A DNA stretch of 64,000 bases, taken from positions 1 through 64,000 of the IMG/VR virus record IMGVR_UViG_3300028008_000009; one strand, 5' to 3'. How positions within the stretch are numbered: the stretch's first letter is position 1; every line of letters begins with the position of its first letter. The notes under the pieces were generated by a model, which saw nothing but the letters and a program-made list of their open reading frames with translations, had not been told where the DNA came from and made no database searches. The position numbers and the translations under genes are program-made. This document shows positions 4,096-42,663 of the stretch, piece by piece. Origin of the DNA: a virus.

Positions 4096-5658
<1,563 letters not shown>

Positions 5659-5662
5659 ACTT

Positions 5663-5670
5663 GTATTTAG
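5663..5670 (-). promoter_or_regulatory. possible degenerate late promoter abutting gp17
   Basis: Minus strand CTAAATAC ends 5 bases before the gp17 ATG. If used, the transcript would be leaderless or nearly so. It is weaker than the other late elements. Confidence 0.35.
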
Positions 5671-5673
5671 TCA

Positions 5674-5708
5674 AGAAAAACGGCGTAGTTAATTAAAACT
5701 ACACCGTT
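5674..5708 (-). terminator. terminator after the 408-aa gene
   Basis: A 12-bp stem (arms 5679-5690 and 5697-5708) is followed on the minus strand by a T-run. It separates the gene ending at 5731 from gp17. Confidence 0.85.
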
Positions 5709-5730
5709 CTGTTATTCACCTGGGAGTAAA

Positions 5731-6957
5731 TTATTTCGATTTTTTTGCTTTGTAGGCTTCTTTAAGATCTTCTACTGTATGTTCTTTAATTCCTACTTTC
5801 ATGCTTTCCGCATCTAAGTATCTTTTTAAACTTAGGTTAACGCTTTGTGCAAGTTCATATGGCTCAGCATATACTGTAGATTCTTCTTCAGCTGCGCCGT
5901 CTGGTGTGTTTGCCCATTCGTTTAATTTTTCACTAATTGCTTCTTCTGATAAACCTGCGTTTTTCATCATAGTAACTAGTTGTGTAGTATCCATTGTTGG
6001 AGACTCTTCTAATTCTTCTTTATCATCTTCGGCTACTGCTACTTCTTCAAGCTCTTCAGTTTCTTCAACTTTATCATCTTCGTCATCTTTTTTAGCACCT
6101 TTTTTAGAAGCTAACATTTTTGCAAATGCGTCTTTTTGTGCTTGGCTTTGTGCTTCTTCAAGTCCAGATAATTCTTTTAATCTGTTCATATCAGATTCCA
6201 TTGATGCAATTTTTGTCCAACCTTCTTGATCAGCCATTTCGTCATCCATGTCTTGGAAGTTATTATCTTGTGGTTCAAAATATGTAAATTCACTTGATGG
6301 CATCATGTGTGTAAAGTTGTGAAGTTCGTCTTTGTTACAATATCCAAAAGCACCTGTTTCAGTGTTAATACATGCATATTCAGGAACATCGCCTTCAGTT
6401 ACTGCTTCTTCTGATTCAACTTTGTATTTTTTGCCGTCAACTTCAAATTCTTTCTTATTGGCCGCTTTAGCTTTTGCTAATTCGCCTGAGAATTCATTGC
6501 CTTCATTTGGAGCTTCTTCTAATGAATCTGGAACGCCATTGCCGTTCTCATCTTTCCACCAGCTACCTGTTTCATCATTGCAATCATGTGAACAATCTGT
6601 AGTTGGTTCATGCATTGTGTCGCCACAGTCTTCGCATTTGTAGTCTGATGCGTTTAGTTGTTGTGCTTCGTCCATGTCATCACCCATGTCATTTAAATCA
6701 TGGTTGCGTCTAAAGTCTGCAACAAAATCTTCAATTTGATCGCCACTTAAATAACGAACTAAATCGTCAAATACTGGTTGACAGTCGCCTTCAAAATGCA
6801 TATCAATTAAATCATAAATTGGTTCTGCAAATTCGCCAACTGCTTCTTGTGCCACTGGTTTCATTTCTCTTTGTGTTGCTTCAGGAGCCGGGCTTGGTGT
6901 TTGTTCTACCGTTGCTTGGCTACCAGCAAGTTTTAATATTCTCTCTAAATCACTCAT
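5731..6957 (-). CDS. acidic hypothetical protein with Cys motif and calcium-loop-like segment
   Basis: This 408-residue, strongly acidic protein starts MSDLERILKLAG and has low-complexity Glu/Asp stretches near residues 270-325. A Cys-rich stretch (CEDCGDTMHE, then CSHDC) around residues 106-125 looks metal binding. It is followed by DENGNGVPDSLEE, which resembles an EF-hand or thrombospondin-type calcium loop. Its ATG overlaps the end of the 151-aa gene (ATGA), so the two are coupled, and both lie in the packaging region with gp16 and gp4. It may be an internal head or scaffold-related protein, but this is inferred from acidity and location only. Confidence 0.75.
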   Translation of the reverse strand: MSDLERILKLAGSQATVEQTPSPAPEATQREMKPVAQEAVGEFAEPIYDLIDMHFEGDCQPVFDDLVRYLSGDQIEDFVADFRRNHDLNDMGDDMDEAQQLNASDYKCEDCGDTMHEPTTDCSHDCNDETGSWWKDENGNGVPDSLEEAPNEGNEFSGELAKAKAANKKEFEVDGKKYKVESEEAVTEGDVPEYACINTETGAFGYCNKDELHNFTHMMPSSEFTYFEPQDNNFQDMDDEMADQEGWTKIASMESDMNRLKELSGLEEAQSQAQKDAFAKMLASKKGAKKDDEDDKVEETEELEEVAVAEDDKEELEESPTMDTTQLVTMMKNAGLSEEAISEKLNEWANTPDGAAEEESTVYAEPYELAQSVNLSLKRYLDAESMKVGIKEHTVEDLKEAYKAKKSK

Positions 6958-14188: not shown

Positions 14189-14926
14189 TTATCCAATAAC
14201 AAAACCTAAGCCGCTTTGTCCATCATTATATAATGTTAGCTCAGTTTCTAATTTGTCTATCTCAGTCATTGCATCAGTTCTAAGCTGATCTGCATTCATT
14301 GTTGTTCCACCTTGTGGTCCTGCAATCTGTGTAAACTTACCACGTGCTTCAGCTATCATAAGTTTTGCATGACATAATGCATAGTCTTTAAGCCAAGGAC
14401 CAGCATATTGATCAGTTAACAAACCTTCATCTGTTCTATAGTTATAGCACCAAAGCACACAGTTGTCAGGTGCTTTAATTTTTCTATGGATAATAAGTTT
14501 TTTATCTTGATGACGCCAAGTAAACATAAGCTCTGCTCCAAACAAGCGGCCCATTGTTTCTCTGCTTTGTTGTAAGAAGTCAAATGTAGCTAATCCACCT
14601 TTACGTGAAGAGCCGAGCAAGTATGTTTGCATGTATGCTGATTGAAATGGTTCAAAATCGTTACCACTACTTGCACTTACACCAGTTGTACGTCTAAAGA
14701 TATCACGTACTTCAATAACTTCGGTTGGTAATGTATATTCACTTTGATCAACTAATAGTTCCATAACAATAAAACTTTCTTCGACTGCATTTTCACTTCG
14801 CTGTCTATACTTTTGTAAACTTTTGTTAATAGCTAGTTCATAATGTTCTGGATCAAGCTCAACGTCGACCATTCCTCCGCCTAAACGAAGTTCAATTTCT
14901 TTTTGTAATTCTGCTTTTTTACTCAT
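14189..14926 (-). CDS. 13: gp13, neck/head-completion protein
   Basis: This 245-residue protein resembles the gp13 neck protein of marine T4-like phages (T4 gp13: 309 aa), which with gp14 seals the filled head and forms the tail docking site. Recognisable stretches are VDVELDPEHYELAINKSL (20-37), YTLPTEVIEVRDIFRR (about 64-79) and a C-terminal ALCHAKLMIAEARGKF helix. The partner gene gp14 lies at 18963 on the other strand. It has a late promoter; the start at 14926 follows GGAGAATG. Confidence 0.82.
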   Translation of the reverse strand: MSKKAELQKEIELRLGGGMVDVELDPEHYELAINKSLQKYRQRSENAVEESFIVMELLVDQSEYTLPTEVIEVRDIFRRTTGVSASSGNDFEPFQSAYMQTYLLGSSRKGGLATFDFLQQSRETMGRLFGAELMFTWRHQDKKLIIHRKIKAPDNCVLWCYNYRTDEGLLTDQYAGPWLKDYALCHAKLMIAEARGKFTQIAGPQGGTTMNADQLRTDAMTEIDKLETELTLYNDGQSGLGFVIG

Positions 14927-15690: not shown

Positions 15691-16295
15691 TTTAATAAGT
15701 CCTCAGAAAGTTCCACTAATGTATCAGCATACTTTATATCTACTTCAGAATCAGTATTTAATTTATCAATGTTAGGTACTTCTTTATTTGCTAAGTCTTC
15801 CAAGAATATATAATTAGTTTCATCTGGGTTTAAGTAGCTTATATCCAGCTCGTCCATGCTTACATGCTTTAGTTTATCTACTACATTACCTAAGAATGGA
15901 TCTCTGATATCAAAGAATTCATATCTACCTGTTTCAAATATAAAGAACTTTCTAAAAACATAATCATCTTTTACAAATGCACTTAGATGTGGGAAGCGTC
16001 TAACAATTCTTGCACTCTTAGGACCAAACAATGTACCAGAGAATACATATATAATTTTCCATATTCCTATTTTTGTTAGCTCTTGTACTGCTACATCAAA
16101 ATCTAGTCTATCTTCAAATAATACAATATTGTTAAAGCCGGCATGTTGAGCAGACTCAAGTGATAACTTTCCTAGTTTCTGATCTAAATCAACATCAAGC
16201 GAGGGAGTTTCAGTGTTCTTACAATCTATAATTACACCAAACTTATCGTCTTCGTTTTTGTTAAAAATTTCATATGGATTAATAAATGCGAACAT
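15687..16295 (-). CDS. hypothetical protein, 202 aa
   Basis: A 202-residue alpha/beta protein starting MFAFINPYEIFNKNEDDKFG. The pattern FGVIIDCKN, GFNNIVLFEDRL, KIIYVFSGTLFGP reads like alternating strands and helices of a Rossmann-like fold. No diagnostic catalytic motif is seen. It overlaps the neighbouring genes by one base at its start and four at its end, indicating tight translational coupling. Function unknown. Confidence 0.7.
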   Translation of the reverse strand: MFAFINPYEIFNKNEDDKFGVIIDCKNTETPSLDVDLDQKLGKLSLESAQHAGFNNIVLFEDRLDFDVAVQELTKIGIWKIIYVFSGTLFGPKSARIVRRFPHLSAFVKDDYVFRKFFIFETGRYEFFDIRDPFLGNVVDKLKHVSMDELDISYLNPDETNYIFLEDLANKEVPNIDKLNTDSEVDIKYADTLVELSEDLLK

Positions 16296-17602
16296 TAAAA
16301 TACCGCCAGTATTATTGTTTCGTCGTTGAACCTACCATTAAGTTTTGTTTCTGTTGTTTTTAGTGTAGCAAACAACTTCTCTGTTTTAGATCTTGTTGTT
16401 TTCTTAATCTGTGGTAAAAACTCATCTGTTTTACGAACAGTTCGTTGTACACTCTTATTCTCATCATAGCCTTGCAGTGTTGTGCCTTTAACACTAAGTC
16501 CGCTACCTTCACGTTGCATTCCTCTTGGGTCTATATTACTTGCATAGTAGAGACCAATTTTACGATTCTTACAATTGAATACCATGGCAATATTTGCCCC
16601 AATTAATTTTTCTGCGGGTACACTTGCAATACCATAGTTAGTATCACTCATTTTAAACTTCAACTTTTTAACTAACTGATCCGCTGATTTAAGTTTTGCT
16701 TTACGTGGCTTTCGTTGTGCTTTATTTTCTACAGAAATAATATCACATGCATCAACAATACGCTGGAACATTTCCAGTATACTTTTTGCTTGTTTAGATG
16801 TTAAATGATTGTATCCTTCTTTAAGTTGAGCATACATATCTTGATCGTACTCGCTCATCTTTTTTAGTTTAGCACTGGTTGGAAAATTTACTAAGTCATA
16901 AATCTCATCACGCTCGCCTTGATACCAAGTTTTAATTAAACGTGCATGTCCGGCTTTGGCTTGTTCACGTCTAAGAATTTTTGCTGGTTCAAATTCTTTT
17001 AGTGCTTTAGTATCATGTGTTTCTAAAAATGAAACTACAAATTCTTCTATTTCAGTAGCCATTACAATACATGCTTCACGCATACGTTCTTGTATAGTAG
17101 GCTGATATGTATTTGCTTTTTCTTTTACAATTTCTTGTTTAGCCTCAAGTATAGGTTTGCCGGCTTTTATTGCAATTTTAATTTGCTTTCGTAAGAATTC
17201 ACCAAGTGGTTTTAGGTCACCCATTGTGCCTGGTAACGACTGCCAATATTCATCTGCTTTTTCGTTGTACTCTGGCATTCCAGATAATATTAATTTTGCT
17301 GTAATGCCTGCTGTTACACTCAACGAATGCCCTGGTGCGGCCTTTACTGCTTTTATATCTTCTTTGGTAAACTCATCACCTTGTTGTATCATCCATGCAC
17401 CAACGGCTGGATAAAGATCTGCAGGTTTATAATTGTGGTAATACCATTCACGGGCATGTGTTGACTTGCGGTGAAATTCTTCACCTGTCCAATCTTCCCA
17501 TCCTTCCCATGATGGTGAATCAAGTTTGGCGCCTCGTTTAATACGTGGAGCGCCTCTGACAACCTTTTTCTTTTTTCGGGTTTTTATATTTGTTGTTGCC
17601 AT
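16295..17602 (-). CDS. conserved hypothetical protein, 435 aa
   Basis: A 435-residue protein with a very basic N-terminus (TRKKKKVVRGAPRIKRG, about 6-22), followed by PSWEGWEDWTGEEFHRK and a largely helical body. Its C-terminal third contains KNRKIGLYYA and a repeat-like TLKTTETK. The basic tail suggests nucleic-acid contact. From memory, similar proteins exist in marine T4-like phages without assigned function. GGAGA precedes the ATG and a good sigma70 promoter lies upstream, suggesting early expression rather than a virion role. Confidence 0.78.
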   Translation of the reverse strand: MATTNIKTRKKKKVVRGAPRIKRGAKLDSPSWEGWEDWTGEEFHRKSTHAREWYYHNYKPADLYPAVGAWMIQQGDEFTKEDIKAVKAAPGHSLSVTAGITAKLILSGMPEYNEKADEYWQSLPGTMGDLKPLGEFLRKQIKIAIKAGKPILEAKQEIVKEKANTYQPTIQERMREACIVMATEIEEFVVSFLETHDTKALKEFEPAKILRREQAKAGHARLIKTWYQGERDEIYDLVNFPTSAKLKKMSEYDQDMYAQLKEGYNHLTSKQAKSILEMFQRIVDACDIISVENKAQRKPRKAKLKSADQLVKKLKFKMSDTNYGIASVPAEKLIGANIAMVFNCKNRKIGLYYASNIDPRGMQREGSGLSVKGTTLQGYDENKSVQRTVRKTDEFLPQIKKTTRSKTEKLFATLKTTETKLNGRFNDETIILAVF

Positions 17603-17886: not shown

Positions 17887-18858
17887 TTATTTTTCGTTGA
17901 TTTGTCTTTCAAATTCTCTTAAACGTTTGAACACACTCATTAACTCAATAAGTGTTGGCCACGCTCTAAAGAGATATTGCATTGAGCCTTCAACTCTACC
18001 AAATGCTCTAATAATCTGTTGCATTACACCTAGTGTTACAACGCCGGCTACAATAGCTGGTGCTAGGAACACATAAGCACTTAATACGTTTGCTTGTAAG
18101 TATGTAATACGTCCTACATTAAAATACAAATAACGCAAATAAGACTTAAAGTGAATACCACGAACATCTGCAAATAATTCATCAATAGTTTTTGGTCTTA
18201 CTGTCTCATCATCTTCTGCAATAACGAGTATCTTTCGGTATGCCGCTTCTTTCTTCTGTAAGTCATATTCTACACCCACAAGTCGTAGTAACCAACCTAG
18301 TGCGATTAAGAATAATGTTCCACCTACTGACCAAACAATAGCACCTGTAACAAGTCCATATTGCCAATCACCAAAGAAGAAGATAGGAATACCAACTGAT
18401 AGTCCTAATAGAATAGGAACGAACTGAACTAGAACCATAATTGATTCAATAAAACTTGTTCCTAAGCCTTCCATAATACGACTAAACTTAATAGTATCTT
18501 CTTGCACACGCTGAGCGGCGCCTTCAATAGTTCTAGCTTTGTCATATACACTATGATACCATTCGACCATTGCTGTGCGCCATCTAAATAGATAGTGTGC
18601 TGTAAAGAAACTTACTACTACTGCGATACCTACATAGATAGCCGCTAAGTATAAGAAACTTGCTAAACTGCCCCAATATTCACCTATGGTGATTGCATTG
18701 GGTGTTGCTAATGCCTTTTGAATCATATCATAAAATTGGCCAAACCATTCGTTAATCTTAACATCAATCTCGACTTGTATCCAAAGCGATGATAGGATTA
18801 TTGCTGATCCTAGCCAGGACCATAAAGCCCATTTTTTTACTGTAAAAAATCTAAACAT
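17887..18858 (-). CDS. SbmA/BacA-family inner-membrane peptide transporter
   Basis: This 323-residue membrane protein closely follows E. coli SbmA and rhizobial BacA, proton-driven importers of antimicrobial peptides, microcins and related cargo. Family signatures are FRWRTAM (91-97), IEGAAQRVQEDT (111-122), EAAYRK (about 205), YLYFNVGRITYLQ (243-255) and ELMSVFKRLREFE (307-319). Hydrophobic segments fall near 12-30, 66-90, 137-162, 166-192 and 258-285. SbmA has 406 residues; the phage version lacks about 80 at the N-terminus, including the first membrane segment. GAGGA precedes the ATG; a strong terminator follows. Such a gene is unexpected among T4 structural genes. Confidence 0.88.
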   Translation of the reverse strand: MFRFFTVKKWALWSWLGSAIILSSLWIQVEIDVKINEWFGQFYDMIQKALATPNAITIGEYWGSLASFLYLAAIYVGIAVVVSFFTAHYLFRWRTAMVEWYHSVYDKARTIEGAAQRVQEDTIKFSRIMEGLGTSFIESIMVLVQFVPILLGLSVGIPIFFFGDWQYGLVTGAIVWSVGGTLFLIALGWLLRLVGVEYDLQKKEAAYRKILVIAEDDETVRPKTIDELFADVRGIHFKSYLRYLYFNVGRITYLQANVLSAYVFLAPAIVAGVVTLGVMQQIIRAFGRVEGSMQYLFRAWPTLIELMSVFKRLREFERQINEK

Positions 18859-18904
18859 AATTTTTCCTCTTTATAATGCTAGTTAAGATTAACTACGCAT
18901 ATAA

Positions 18905-18962: not shown

Positions 18963-20048
18963 ATGCCAAGATTAAGTTTATATAAACCATACAAAAGCAA
19001 CGATTATAACTTCATGGATAGGAGTATTCTCGAGCAATTTTCAATTGGTGGTACTGCAATACATGTACACAAGTACTTAGGTCCTGATTCAGATTCGTCT
19101 AATGATGATCCAAGTGAACCAAATTATAAAAGTGGCTTACAAAAAGATATGCTATCAGGTGAAGAAATTAATCCTGAAGGTTTAGTAGACGAAACTAAAA
19201 TACAAGACTTACTGTTTATGGAAAACAGAGATCGTAAGTACGATCCGGATATTTTTGAACTACGTGGCGTATATAATGTAAGTGACAATGATTTTGATTT
19301 AACACAGTTTGGTTTGTTTTTAACAAACGATACATTGTTTATTACATTTCATATTAACGATATGGTTCAAAAACTTGGTAGAAGATTAATGCCAGGAGAT
19401 GTAATTGAATTACCGCATTTACGTGATGAATTACTATTAAGCACAGACAGAGATGCTGTTAACAAATTTTATGTTGTACAAGATGCCGCAAGAGGAAGTG
19501 AAGGATTCTCACAAACTTGGTATCCACACATTTGGCGTGTTAAAGTAGCACCATTAACAGATACACAAGAATACGCAGATATACTTGGAACTGCTGGTGA
19601 TCCAGATAGTCTTAAAAATGATATAAGTGCATACAAAACAGAGCTTAATATTAGTAACGCTATTGTACAAGCTGCAGAAGAAGCCGATCCTAATGGATTG
19701 CCATTAGCTGAACATTTGTTTGGTGTGGATGACAAAAAAGAGCCAGAATATGATCACGGTGAAACACTACAACAAGGTGATCAATTTCCTGTTCAACCAA
19801 AAGATGGTGAATTCTTTATACGAAATGATTTTAATCCAAATAGATTATTTGTGTTTAGAGGAAGCAGATGGCAAAGACTATATGATAACGTGACTGAAAA
19901 AACTTGGAGCGATAAAACATATAACGCTGGTGACTTTATTAATAATAATTCAACAACAGTTGTGGATGATAAAGAAACTCCAGAACGTCAAGCATTAAGT
20001 AAAGTAATGAACCCTTCTAAGAAAAAAGGGCTAGATTCAGACTTTTAG
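18963..20048 (+). CDS. 14: gp14, neck protein
   Basis: This 361-residue protein matches the marine T4-like gp14, which with gp13 forms the neck below the portal. Diagnostic stretches are MPRLSLYKPYKSNDYNFMDR at the start, LLFMENRDRKYDPDIFELRG (about 83-102) and GDVIELPHLRDE (about 147-158). T4 gp14 has 256 residues; the extra C-terminal part includes a DGEFFIRND...LFVFRGSRWQRLYD element like those in the sheath insertion. AGGAAA precedes the ATG. It is followed after nine bases by gp15. Confidence 0.85.
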   Translation: MPRLSLYKPYKSNDYNFMDRSILEQFSIGGTAIHVHKYLGPDSDSSNDDPSEPNYKSGLQKDMLSGEEINPEGLVDETKIQDLLFMENRDRKYDPDIFELRGVYNVSDNDFDLTQFGLFLTNDTLFITFHINDMVQKLGRRLMPGDVIELPHLRDELLLSTDRDAVNKFYVVQDAARGSEGFSQTWYPHIWRVKVAPLTDTQEYADILGTAGDPDSLKNDISAYKTELNISNAIVQAAEEADPNGLPLAEHLFGVDDKKEPEYDHGETLQQGDQFPVQPKDGEFFIRNDFNPNRLFVFRGSRWQRLYDNVTEKTWSDKTYNAGDFINNNSTTVVDDKETPERQALSKVMNPSKKKGLDSDF

Positions 20049-20057
20049 GAATAAACA

Positions 20058-21419
20058 ATGGCAGAGCAACAATACTTTTACGATAAACAAATTAGAAGAT
20101 ACATTCAACAGTTTATAAGACTGTTTAGTGGATTCAGTGTACAAATGGGCAAAGATGATACTGGGCTTCCAGTAATGCAATTAGTTCCAGTACGCTATGG
20201 TGATATCAATCGTATGGCGGCACACATAACCAGAGAAAACTCAGAGAACATTGTTAACACTGTTCCATTTATTAGTTGTTATGTTACTAACTTAGCAATG
20301 GCGCCTGAATTAAGAACATCACCAGGACACATAGACAAAGTTCAAGTTATAGAAAAGAAATATAATGATACAACTGGTGAATATTCAAACGAACCTGGCA
20401 ATAGATATACAATAGAAAGACATAATCCAGTTACATATGTACTATCAATGAACTGCGATATATGGACTTCAAATACAGAACAAAAGTTACAACTAATGGA
20501 ACAAATATTAGTATTGTTTAATCCTACGTTAGATGTTAGGACTTCCAATAATCCATATGACTGGAGTTCGTTAACTTATATAGAAATGAAAAATACCACA
20601 TGGAGTAGTAGAAGCATAGGTAGTAGCATTGACGATATTATTGATGTAGCTTCTATAAATTTTGATTTACCTATATTAATCAATCCACCAGCTAAGGTAA
20701 AACAACAAAAACTTATACATACTATTATTAATCAAATGTATAATTTAGACGATGTACAATTAGATAACTTTAAAGAGAATGTTGCATTTGATAGATCTAC
20801 TGTAGAATATACTGTAGTTACACTTGAAAATAGAAAAGTCATGTATGAAGATAATAAATTAACTTTACTTGCATTAGATGAAACTGCATTTGACTCTGAT
20901 GGTAATGAAGTATCGTGGACAAATGATCTAAAGAAATTTGGAGAGTTAAGAGATGGTATTAGTCAAATTAGATTAAGAAAAAGTTCTGACCCAGGCGACA
21001 CAGACAATGACATTATTGGTCGTGTGAGCAAACTTAATGATAATATATTATCAGTTGATATTGATACGTCAACATTGCCTACTAATACATTATCTGCAAT
21101 AAATGGAATTATAGATGGATCAAAAAACTATCCAGGTGATGGTACTGTTCCTTCTGCAAATGCTGGTGTTAGATACTTATTACTTAATCCTATTCCTGTT
21201 AGTTCAAATTGGAATGGTTTATCAAGTGCTAACCGATATGATATTGTAGAGTTTGACGGAAGTGCATGGTCTATAGTATTTGACTCTGCTGCAAATAACA
21301 ACTTAACACATTACGTAACTAATGTCAGCACAGATGATCAATTAGAGTGGAACGGCTCTGGTTGGGTTAACAGTTACGAAGCAATTTACAACGCAGGCTT
21401 TTGGAGACTGTACTTATAA
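20058..21419 (+). CDS. 15: gp15, tail sheath stabiliser/terminator
   Basis: This 453-residue protein corresponds to gp15, which caps the sheath and connects the tail to the neck. It begins EQQYFYDKQIRRYIQQFIRLFSG in the way gp15 begins with a Y-F-Y...RRY segment. Other gp15-like features are LVPVRYGD, a central YVLSMNCDIWTSNTEQ...LMEQILVLFNP strand-helix unit (about 130-160) and INFDLPILINPP. T4 gp15 has 272 residues; the C-terminal extension (about 250-453) ends in RYDIVEFDGSAWSIV and WNGSGWVNSY repeats like those in gp14 and gp18. Its stop overlaps the Nudix start. Confidence 0.85.
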   Translation: MAEQQYFYDKQIRRYIQQFIRLFSGFSVQMGKDDTGLPVMQLVPVRYGDINRMAAHITRENSENIVNTVPFISCYVTNLAMAPELRTSPGHIDKVQVIEKKYNDTTGEYSNEPGNRYTIERHNPVTYVLSMNCDIWTSNTEQKLQLMEQILVLFNPTLDVRTSNNPYDWSSLTYIEMKNTTWSSRSIGSSIDDIIDVASINFDLPILINPPAKVKQQKLIHTIINQMYNLDDVQLDNFKENVAFDRSTVEYTVVTLENRKVMYEDNKLTLLALDETAFDSDGNEVSWTNDLKKFGELRDGISQIRLRKSSDPGDTDNDIIGRVSKLNDNILSVDIDTSTLPTNTLSAINGIIDGSKNYPGDGTVPSANAGVRYLLLNPIPVSSNWNGLSSANRYDIVEFDGSAWSIVFDSAANNNLTHYVTNVSTDDQLEWNGSGWVNSYEAIYNAGFWRLYL

Positions 21420-41859: not shown

Positions 41860-42663
41860 TTAGAAGCTAAAAGATACACCAACCGCTGGTGAGGTTGTTT
41901 TAGCATCTACATCATATGATGCTTCTGCATAAAGATCAAGGCCGTTTAATGAACCTTTTACGCCTGCACCAATGTGTTGTACTGTATTATTTTCGTCGCC
42001 GTCCATGAATACTGTTAATCCACCTGTTGTTGCATTTACTTCATATGCTAATGTATCTGCTGCATATGTACCTGTGCCACCAATTGACAATTCTGTTGTA
42101 AGATCCAACTCTGAGCTAAGTGCATATGCTTTAGCTTCTGTGTCAGTGTTATAATCTACTGCTACAGTTGAAGCAATTGCTCCAAGTTCAATGTCATATG
42201 CAAGCTGTACGTTGTCAAGATCAGTTACGTCAGTTTTTAAGCCGTCAAAACCAGCCATTGCTGATAAGTTGCCCATTGTAACCATTACTGATTCGTTAAC
42301 AGTTGGGTTAGCAAGAGTAGTTGAACCTACTGTTTCTAATCCTGCACTTGGAAACAAGTCGCCTTGCTTACCTAGTGATACTGTTGCACCTGCAACTGTT
42401 GTACCAATGTGCCATTCTTCAACACTTACTGATGTGTCTGGAGTCGCTGTAAACGAAATACCGCCAAATGCTGGTCCTGTTCCTGAAATCTCAAGATCAA
42501 GTGTTGTTTTACCAACATACTTGTCTGATGTGTTTTTTGTTACGTCGAACTCAACTGAAGCACTTACTGGTGATGTCGGTGCTGGGTGAGTATGTGCTGT
42601 TGTATCTGCTGATGCAACTGATGCCGCCATCAACATTGCTAAAACGCTTATTGTTGTTTTCAT
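41860..42663 (-). CDS. porin-like outer-membrane beta-barrel
   Basis: A 267-residue protein with a textbook signal peptide: MKTT, a hydrophobic core, and ASA before a predicted cut after residue 19. The mature part alternates polar and nonpolar residues in strands of 8-10 residues separated by Gly/Asp turns (KTTLDLEISG, LDLYAEASYDVDAK) and ends in VGVSFSF, the terminal-Phe signal for outer-membrane insertion. It resembles a small Gram-negative porin more than any T4 protein. It has its own perfect sigma70 promoter, a leader with two hairpins and its own terminator, so it is a stand-alone early unit between capsid and fibre genes. Specificity cannot be read. Confidence 0.82.
   Translation of the reverse strand: MKTTISVLAMLMAASVASADTTAHTHPAPTSPVSASVEFDVTKNTSDKYVGKTTLDLEISGTGPAFGGISFTATPDTSVSVEEWHIGTTVAGATVSLGKQGDLFPSAGLETVGSTTLANPTVNESVMVTMGNLSAMAGFDGLKTDVTDLDNVQLAYDIELGAIASTVAVDYNTDTEAKAYALSSELDLTTELSIGGTGTYAADTLAYEVNATTGGLTVFMDGDENNTVQHIGAGVKGSLNGLDLYAEASYDVDAKTTSPAVGVSFSF

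Follow-up and report, generated by a model that had tools for sequence, protein, structure and literature searches.

A short SbmA/BacA-family importer gene encoded by a T4-like phage and carried by several unrelated marine phage backbones

The SbmA/BacA family and its short phage-encoded member

SbmA of E. coli and BacA of Sinorhizobium (SbmA-like peptide transporters, SLiPT) have been studied for the uptake of antimicrobial peptides and for symbiosis, and what they do physiologically is still described as unclear (PMC13316013). The proton ladder of SbmA consists of six glutamates (E193, E203, E269, E276, E287 and E378), with Y368 as the central gate, and the transporter is inactive or severely impaired after the loss of any ladder glutamate (PMC13316013). 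A 2025 survey found SbmA/BacA mainly in Hyphomicrobiales and Enterobacterales, scattered in other Pseudomonadota and tied to life with eukaryotic hosts (PMC12003926). The words 'phage', 'virus' and 'Pelagi' occur nowhere in this taxonomic survey, and the open-access literature searched, where absence is no proof, contained no report that phages carry SbmA or BacA or that SAR11 has SbmA, in agreement with the initial annotation of the present DNA, which knew of no established phage role for the family.

The DNA analysed here, referred to as the window, comprises bases 1-64,000 of a 102,438-base IMG/VR virus record. It carries an sbmA-like open reading frame of 323 amino acids with an ATG start:

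17887-18858, minus strand: sbmA-like gene, predicted short SLiPT-type importer without the TM0 domain (open reading frame, profile and structure-sequence matches)
18866-18871, minus strand: putative ribosome-binding site AAGAGG, 5' of the ATG (sequence)
17944-18501, minus strand: predicted ladder glutamates E120, E130, E197, E204, E215 and E305 (SbmA E193, E203, E269, E276, E287 and E378) and gate tyrosine Y295 (SbmA Y368) (7p34 alignment and PMC13316013)

The assignment of this gene to an SbmA/BacA-type importer proved sound. The protein matched Pfam SbmA_BacA (PF05992) with E = 7.8e-140 (466 bits against a gathering cut-off of 24) over profile positions 2-315 of 315, and the four motifs on which the assignment had been based were all located (FRWRTAM at residues 91-97, IEGAAQRVQEDT at 111-122, YLYFNVGRITYLQ at 243-255 and ELMSVFKRL at 305-313). 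A match of residues 5-321 to the E. coli SbmA structure 7p34 (E = 1e-91) suggests that the protein adopts the SbmA fold; the AlphaFold model of the protein itself has low confidence (mean pLDDT 56). Identity to an enterobacterial-type sequence is about 48% over the transmembrane core and, like SbmA and BacA, the window protein keeps the six glutamates of the ladder as well as the central gate tyrosine. Unlike them, it has no TM0 domain (helices TM0a and TM0b) and falls below the SbmA equivalog cut-off. The ABC transporters BclA, Rv1819c and YddA (ABC_membrane_2) have a distantly related transmembrane domain (PF06472, 3.5e-07), from which the phage protein differs in its full glutamate ladder and in the absence of a nucleotide-binding domain, the transmembrane family filling the whole 323-aa frame. 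YddA has no equivalents of E203 and E287 (PMC13316013), both of which are present in the window protein.

The initial annotation had also stated that about 80 N-terminal residues are lacking. This holds for the alignment with E. coli SbmA, in which window residue 5 pairs with SbmA residue 78 and the start corresponds to about residue 74, but it does not hold as a loss, the short form being native both in the family and in the probable hosts. Profile NF009036 (PRK12369, 326 positions) was matched end to end (profile positions 1-324, protein residues 1-322) with 432.9 bits against a curated cut-off of 385, whereas the SbmA equivalog NF008306 was matched only from position 81, its first 80 positions being unmatched, with 374.2 bits against a cut-off of 492, indicating that the missing N-terminus is a native short form and not a deletion. 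The scan for viral relatives covered the best 80 matches listed (86-100% identity), so that frequencies given here describe samples. The ATG site is common to 80/80 of these, giving proteins of 321-324 aa, and a purine-rich GGA-type site precedes it in nearly all. An extra in-frame start lies about 13-31 codons upstream in a few, and most relatives have no 5' reading frame able to encode TM0. Chromosomal SAR11 and SAR116 copies are equally short. Truncation or a pseudogene was ruled out by the end-to-end NF009036 match together with the shared start and intact frame in 80 copies.

As read from its sequence, the window protein is thus a full-length member of a short family without TM0 and not a shortened SbmA. 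This family of short transporters is known, and the window protein joins it as a new member of viral origin; it does not count as an SbmA equivalog. With the 'putative transporter' of NF009036/PRK12369 on SAR11 and SAR116 chromosomes it shares its length, the end-to-end match above the cut-off and 81-91% identity to marine alphaproteobacterial copies; unlike those chromosomal copies, it is phage-encoded, lies amid structural genes and is exchanged between phage types. We favour, at a probability of roughly 0.55, a working short-form, proton-driven importer that derives from marine alphaproteobacteria, has been passed among large marine phages and is kept as an auxiliary nutrient-uptake gene.

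Transport residues and selection

A loss of the residues required for transport, which would have spoken against an importer, was not seen: the six ladder glutamates are invariant in 81/81 close viral copies. In a wider set of 108 sequences (phage, SAR11, SAR116 and outgroup), five of the six are kept throughout, and the E269 equivalent has a single exception, the Acinetobacter outgroup. The single exception at the Y368 equivalent is a distant phage copy (L327). Compared with the window, sbmA gave dN/dS values of 0.04-0.14 and ten neighbouring phage genes gave 0.04-0.38; sbmA was lowest or near-lowest in most comparisons, with few exceptions (e.g. L004 and L021). Judged from these codon substitutions, the gene is shown to be under purifying selection, and the low dN/dS lends indirect backing to the idea that the phage would express it during infection and benefit from it. 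Synonymous divergence among the nearest relatives is low in sbmA (0.05-0.39) compared with its neighbours (about 0.3-0.7), as expected if recombination exchanges the gene.

These observations bear on interference with the host, by inactive mixed dimers with the host transporter, as the initial annotation had considered, or by a block to superinfection through that transporter. SbmA acts as a homodimer (PMC13316013), and with host copies 81-91% identical, mixed dimers are likely. However, given an intact ladder and such similar host copies, a mixed dimer should work, which disfavours the inactive-dimer idea. The ladder glutamates and the gate tyrosine are under strong purifying selection that would be needless for a poison subunit, the absence of TM0 is native to the host copies too, and no report of SbmA as a phage receptor was found in the literature searched. 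Interference of either kind is accordingly regarded as very improbable.

Genome position, spread among phages and bacterial origin

The phage had been described as T4-like, and its gene content bears this out: the large terminase is closest to those of jumbo phages (e.g. PA5oct and Sinorhizobium phage Phosso), and a T4-type major head protein (phrog_138), tail sheath, neck adaptor, sheath stabiliser and tail fibres are present. Around sbmA, the following genes were identified:

18963-20048, plus strand: upstream neighbour, virion structural protein phrog_11591, divergent from sbmA and adjoining it in most backbone-A loci
16295-17602, minus strand: downstream neighbour, conserved phage protein phrog_11903 (PHROGs match, synteny)
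20058-21419, plus strand: tail sheath stabiliser-like protein (phrog_11196, phrog_227), syntenic with sbmA (PHROGs match, synteny)
14189-14926, minus strand: head-tail adaptor Ad2 / neck protein (phrog_211), syntenic with sbmA (PHROGs match, synteny)

Flanking genes stand in the window's order around sbmA in about 50 of the best 80 viral loci, on independent contigs from different metagenome samples. The chimeric assembly that the initial annotation had allowed for is ruled out by these identical junctions; independent assemblies place sbmA, a presumably host-derived gene, inside phage genomes with phage genes on either side. The evidence comes from metagenomic virus records, mostly fragments, some of the sbmA carriers having T4-type head, sheath or terminase genes. 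Among the INPHARED/GenBank records examined there was no genuine phage record with sbmA, and no cultured carrier in the collection searched. The sole INPHARED 'phage' records examined with the gene were rejected as isolates, Acinetobacter phage MD-2021a being bacterial contamination and the other an unverified 7-kb Salmonella contig, which might be taken to favour an artefact, either an assembly error that fused bacterial and phage DNA or a passenger gene in decay. Against this stand the repeated junctions, a frame intact in 80/80 copies, the low dN/dS and a GC content of 36.8% in the gene versus 37.4% in the window, leaving an artefact with hardly any probability. The two MD-2021a records (CAKLQH020000002.1, L082, and CAKLQF020000003.1) show the bacterial chromosomal neighbourhood gatA, gatB, tdcB and yccS, and a viral search with the Acinetobacter-type SbmA as query gave no match.

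The T4 late promoter motif [C/G]ATAAATA lies 22-42 bases 5' of several structural genes. Its 16 sites in the window do not clearly exceed chance (11 expected; 16 reached in 10 of 100 shuffles), and none of these sites precedes sbmA; sigma-70-like sites occur at chance frequency. Beside the major head gene, positions 41860-42663 (minus strand) encode a 267-aa product with an apparent signal peptide, a C-terminal Phe and a beta-rich, outer-membrane-porin-like appearance, which gave no Pfam or PHROGs match.

A search of phage genomes, as the initial annotation had proposed, revealed SbmA_BacA members in several unrelated marine phage backbones. The loci of backbone B (L013, L029-L041, L043 and L047, with genes for QueE, an exonuclease, an ATPase and a tryptophan halogenase), as well as L048, L050 and L080, have essentially no other gene in common with the window, and their sbmA products are 88-97% identical to the window's. 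Further backbones carry a SAR11-type sbmA, including contigs 242 and 328 kb long on which T4-type head and sheath genes are present. Backbone-B records are fragments without structural hallmarks. That they form another part of backbone-A genomes is unlikely, because a backbone-B marker gene is absent from backbone-A records of up to 222 kb and one sbmA per record was found in 14/14 records checked. The sbmA genes of L013 (backbone B) and L001 (backbone A) agree at 83% of third codon positions even though their flanks are unrelated, which indicates transfer between phages.

Several of these loci also contain halogenase genes, raising the possibility of a small natural-product pathway in which a halogenated peptide-like compound would be imported or recycled by SbmA, or SbmA would give self-protection against it. 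A flavin-dependent halogenase (Pfam Trp_halogenase, 1.1e-72) follows sbmA at 1.0-2.9 kb in 24 backbone-A loci (e.g. L058, 11036-12241), a second halogenase type lies 6.4-7.2 kb from sbmA in 10 backbone-B loci, and in L043 (15105-18166) an AMP-binding (adenylating) enzyme stands ahead of the halogenase. However, no halogenase lies close to sbmA in the window or in its nearest relatives. Marine phages often carry flavin-dependent tryptophan halogenases, and the proximity may be due to chance. Such a pathway appears improbable, and we return to the favoured nutrient importer and its origin.

Close bacterial copies are chromosomal, with neighbourhoods conserved within each lineage. The nearest, about 90% identical, belong to marine single-cell genomes of 36% GC labelled as uncultured Alphaproteobacteria. 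By eye, the sbmA neighbours are molybdenum-cofactor and flagellar genes in this 36%-GC group and glpX-like and recJ-like genes in SAR11, and the chromosomal neighbours of the short form point to no substrate. The family tree with bacterial copies, also proposed in the initial annotation, places the window type with backbones B, C and E and the 36%-GC group, and backbones F, G and H with SAR11; it needs at least seven changes between phage and bacterium, only one of which is forced by strongly supported branches. The host of the window phage is probably a marine alphaproteobacterium. The short SbmA_BacA family was present in 138 of 147 genomes sampled from the order of Candidatus Pelagibacter (genome G019), a near-universal distribution that is absent from the 2025 survey (PMC12003926).

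Proposed function and transporter genes in related phages

Under the favoured reading, the product would be a short SbmA/SLiPT inner-membrane importer with a six-helix core, without TM0 or ATPase and driven by protons, whose gene would have left marine alphaproteobacterial hosts and been exchanged repeatedly among large marine phages that are unrelated to one another. In the infected cell, the protein may insert into the inner membrane, forming a homodimer or pairing with the nearly identical protein of the host, and would raise or sustain the uptake of a solute such as a small peptide, a metallophore or a cofactor. This auxiliary nutrient-uptake role would resemble that of the FTR1 iron permease and the Na/Pi cotransporter in islands of related phages. 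A known phage auxiliary transporter gene is PstS of cyanophages; like it, the window gene would be a host-derived uptake gene in a marine phage, although it belongs to a different transporter family. In free-living SAR11 the short form is approximately a core gene, and several marine phage groups carry it, suggesting that it serves a basic uptake function in starving plankton.

The main rival, which we consider unlikely but less so than the other alternatives, is envelope protection or altered sensitivity, in which the importer would clear membrane-active or periplasmic peptides (bacteriocins or eukaryotic peptides) inward and thereby keep the infected cell alive for long enough, a role also proposed for BacA towards NCR peptides in Sinorhizobium. 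The peptide role of BacA is documented in bacteria (PMC12003926), the SbmA family is promiscuous (PMC13316013), and intact transport residues fit peptide clearance as well as nutrient uptake. However, the hosts already hold a near-identical core copy, the habitat and probable hosts indicate free-living plankton and not symbionts, and the partners of sbmA in phage islands are iron and phosphate transporters and not peptide-defence genes.

These partners, which fit the nutrient-uptake role, were found around a three-gene module, X-Y-Z, which in 22 different contigs lies directly 5' of sbmA. X belongs to the MotA/TolQ/ExbB proteins (PF01618, 1.1e-8, above cut-off); a Zorya-type defence assignment for X was rejected, the match being limited to the shared MotA/ExbB domain and of weak score. 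Y begins with a single helix that contains an invariant Asp (FxDLLFN) and may be reminiscent of ExbD/TolR; the model of the beta-sandwich that follows (pLDDT 88) has TerD folds as its nearest, borderline matches (E = 1e-3). Z, the third membrane protein of the module, has two helices predicted by inspection. The module was found at 335 candidate loci in phage contigs. Among the best 80 viral Y loci, X is present in 79 and Z in 78, with sbmA within 6 kb in 22, FTR1 in 6 and a Na/Pi cotransporter gene in 10. One group has the order X-Y-Z-ClpS-[SbmA, FTR1, or both]-Nfu-SufT, showing that importers alternate in a single slot. Without sbmA, the module is likewise present in cultured Rhizobium phages (e.g. 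P10VF, where its genes are annotated as hypothetical proteins), and it is found in alphaproteobacterial chromosomes.

This transporter-rich context belongs to related phages and not to the window's own 102-kb record, from which the X and Y genes are absent. Both occur in 7 of 12 other sbmA records, in some of them, such as the 204-kb backbone-A record G002, far from sbmA. The recurrence of sbmA in unrelated marine phage groups, often beside nutrient transporters, suggests that phages upgrade the uptake of the infected cell. Only tentatively would we extend this to a mobile envelope-uptake island shared by unrelated marine phage groups, which would combine an ExbB/ExbD-like proton-channel module with interchangeable SbmA, FTR1 and Na/Pi importers and rebuild the nutrient uptake of the infected cell, SbmA being the commonest and the window phage keeping SbmA alone. 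The natural variants, together with the slot shared with an iron permease, provide a handle on the physiological substrate.

Representative X-Y-Z modules lie at 8029-9696 in L243, 8414-9991 in L260, 8341-9985 in L080 and 4426-5930 in Rhizobium phage P10VF (L391). Genes for Hsp20-like, ClpS, Nfu (ClpS and Nfu confirmed by Pfam) and SufT-like proteins surround the module and sbmA in L243 (7486-7944 and 9696-11909). The FTR1-family iron permease was found in phage locus L313 (5204-5851) and in L315, L316, L318, L323 and L325, in the sbmA slot or beside sbmA, and a Na/Pi cotransporter-family protein in L360 (11234-11725) and nine other Y loci, in five immediately 3' of the module. Five genes after Z, L327 (8678-9715) and L329 encode a much more distant phage SbmA-family protein with about 36% identity to that of the window and Leu in place of the gate Tyr, which is probably a separate acquisition.
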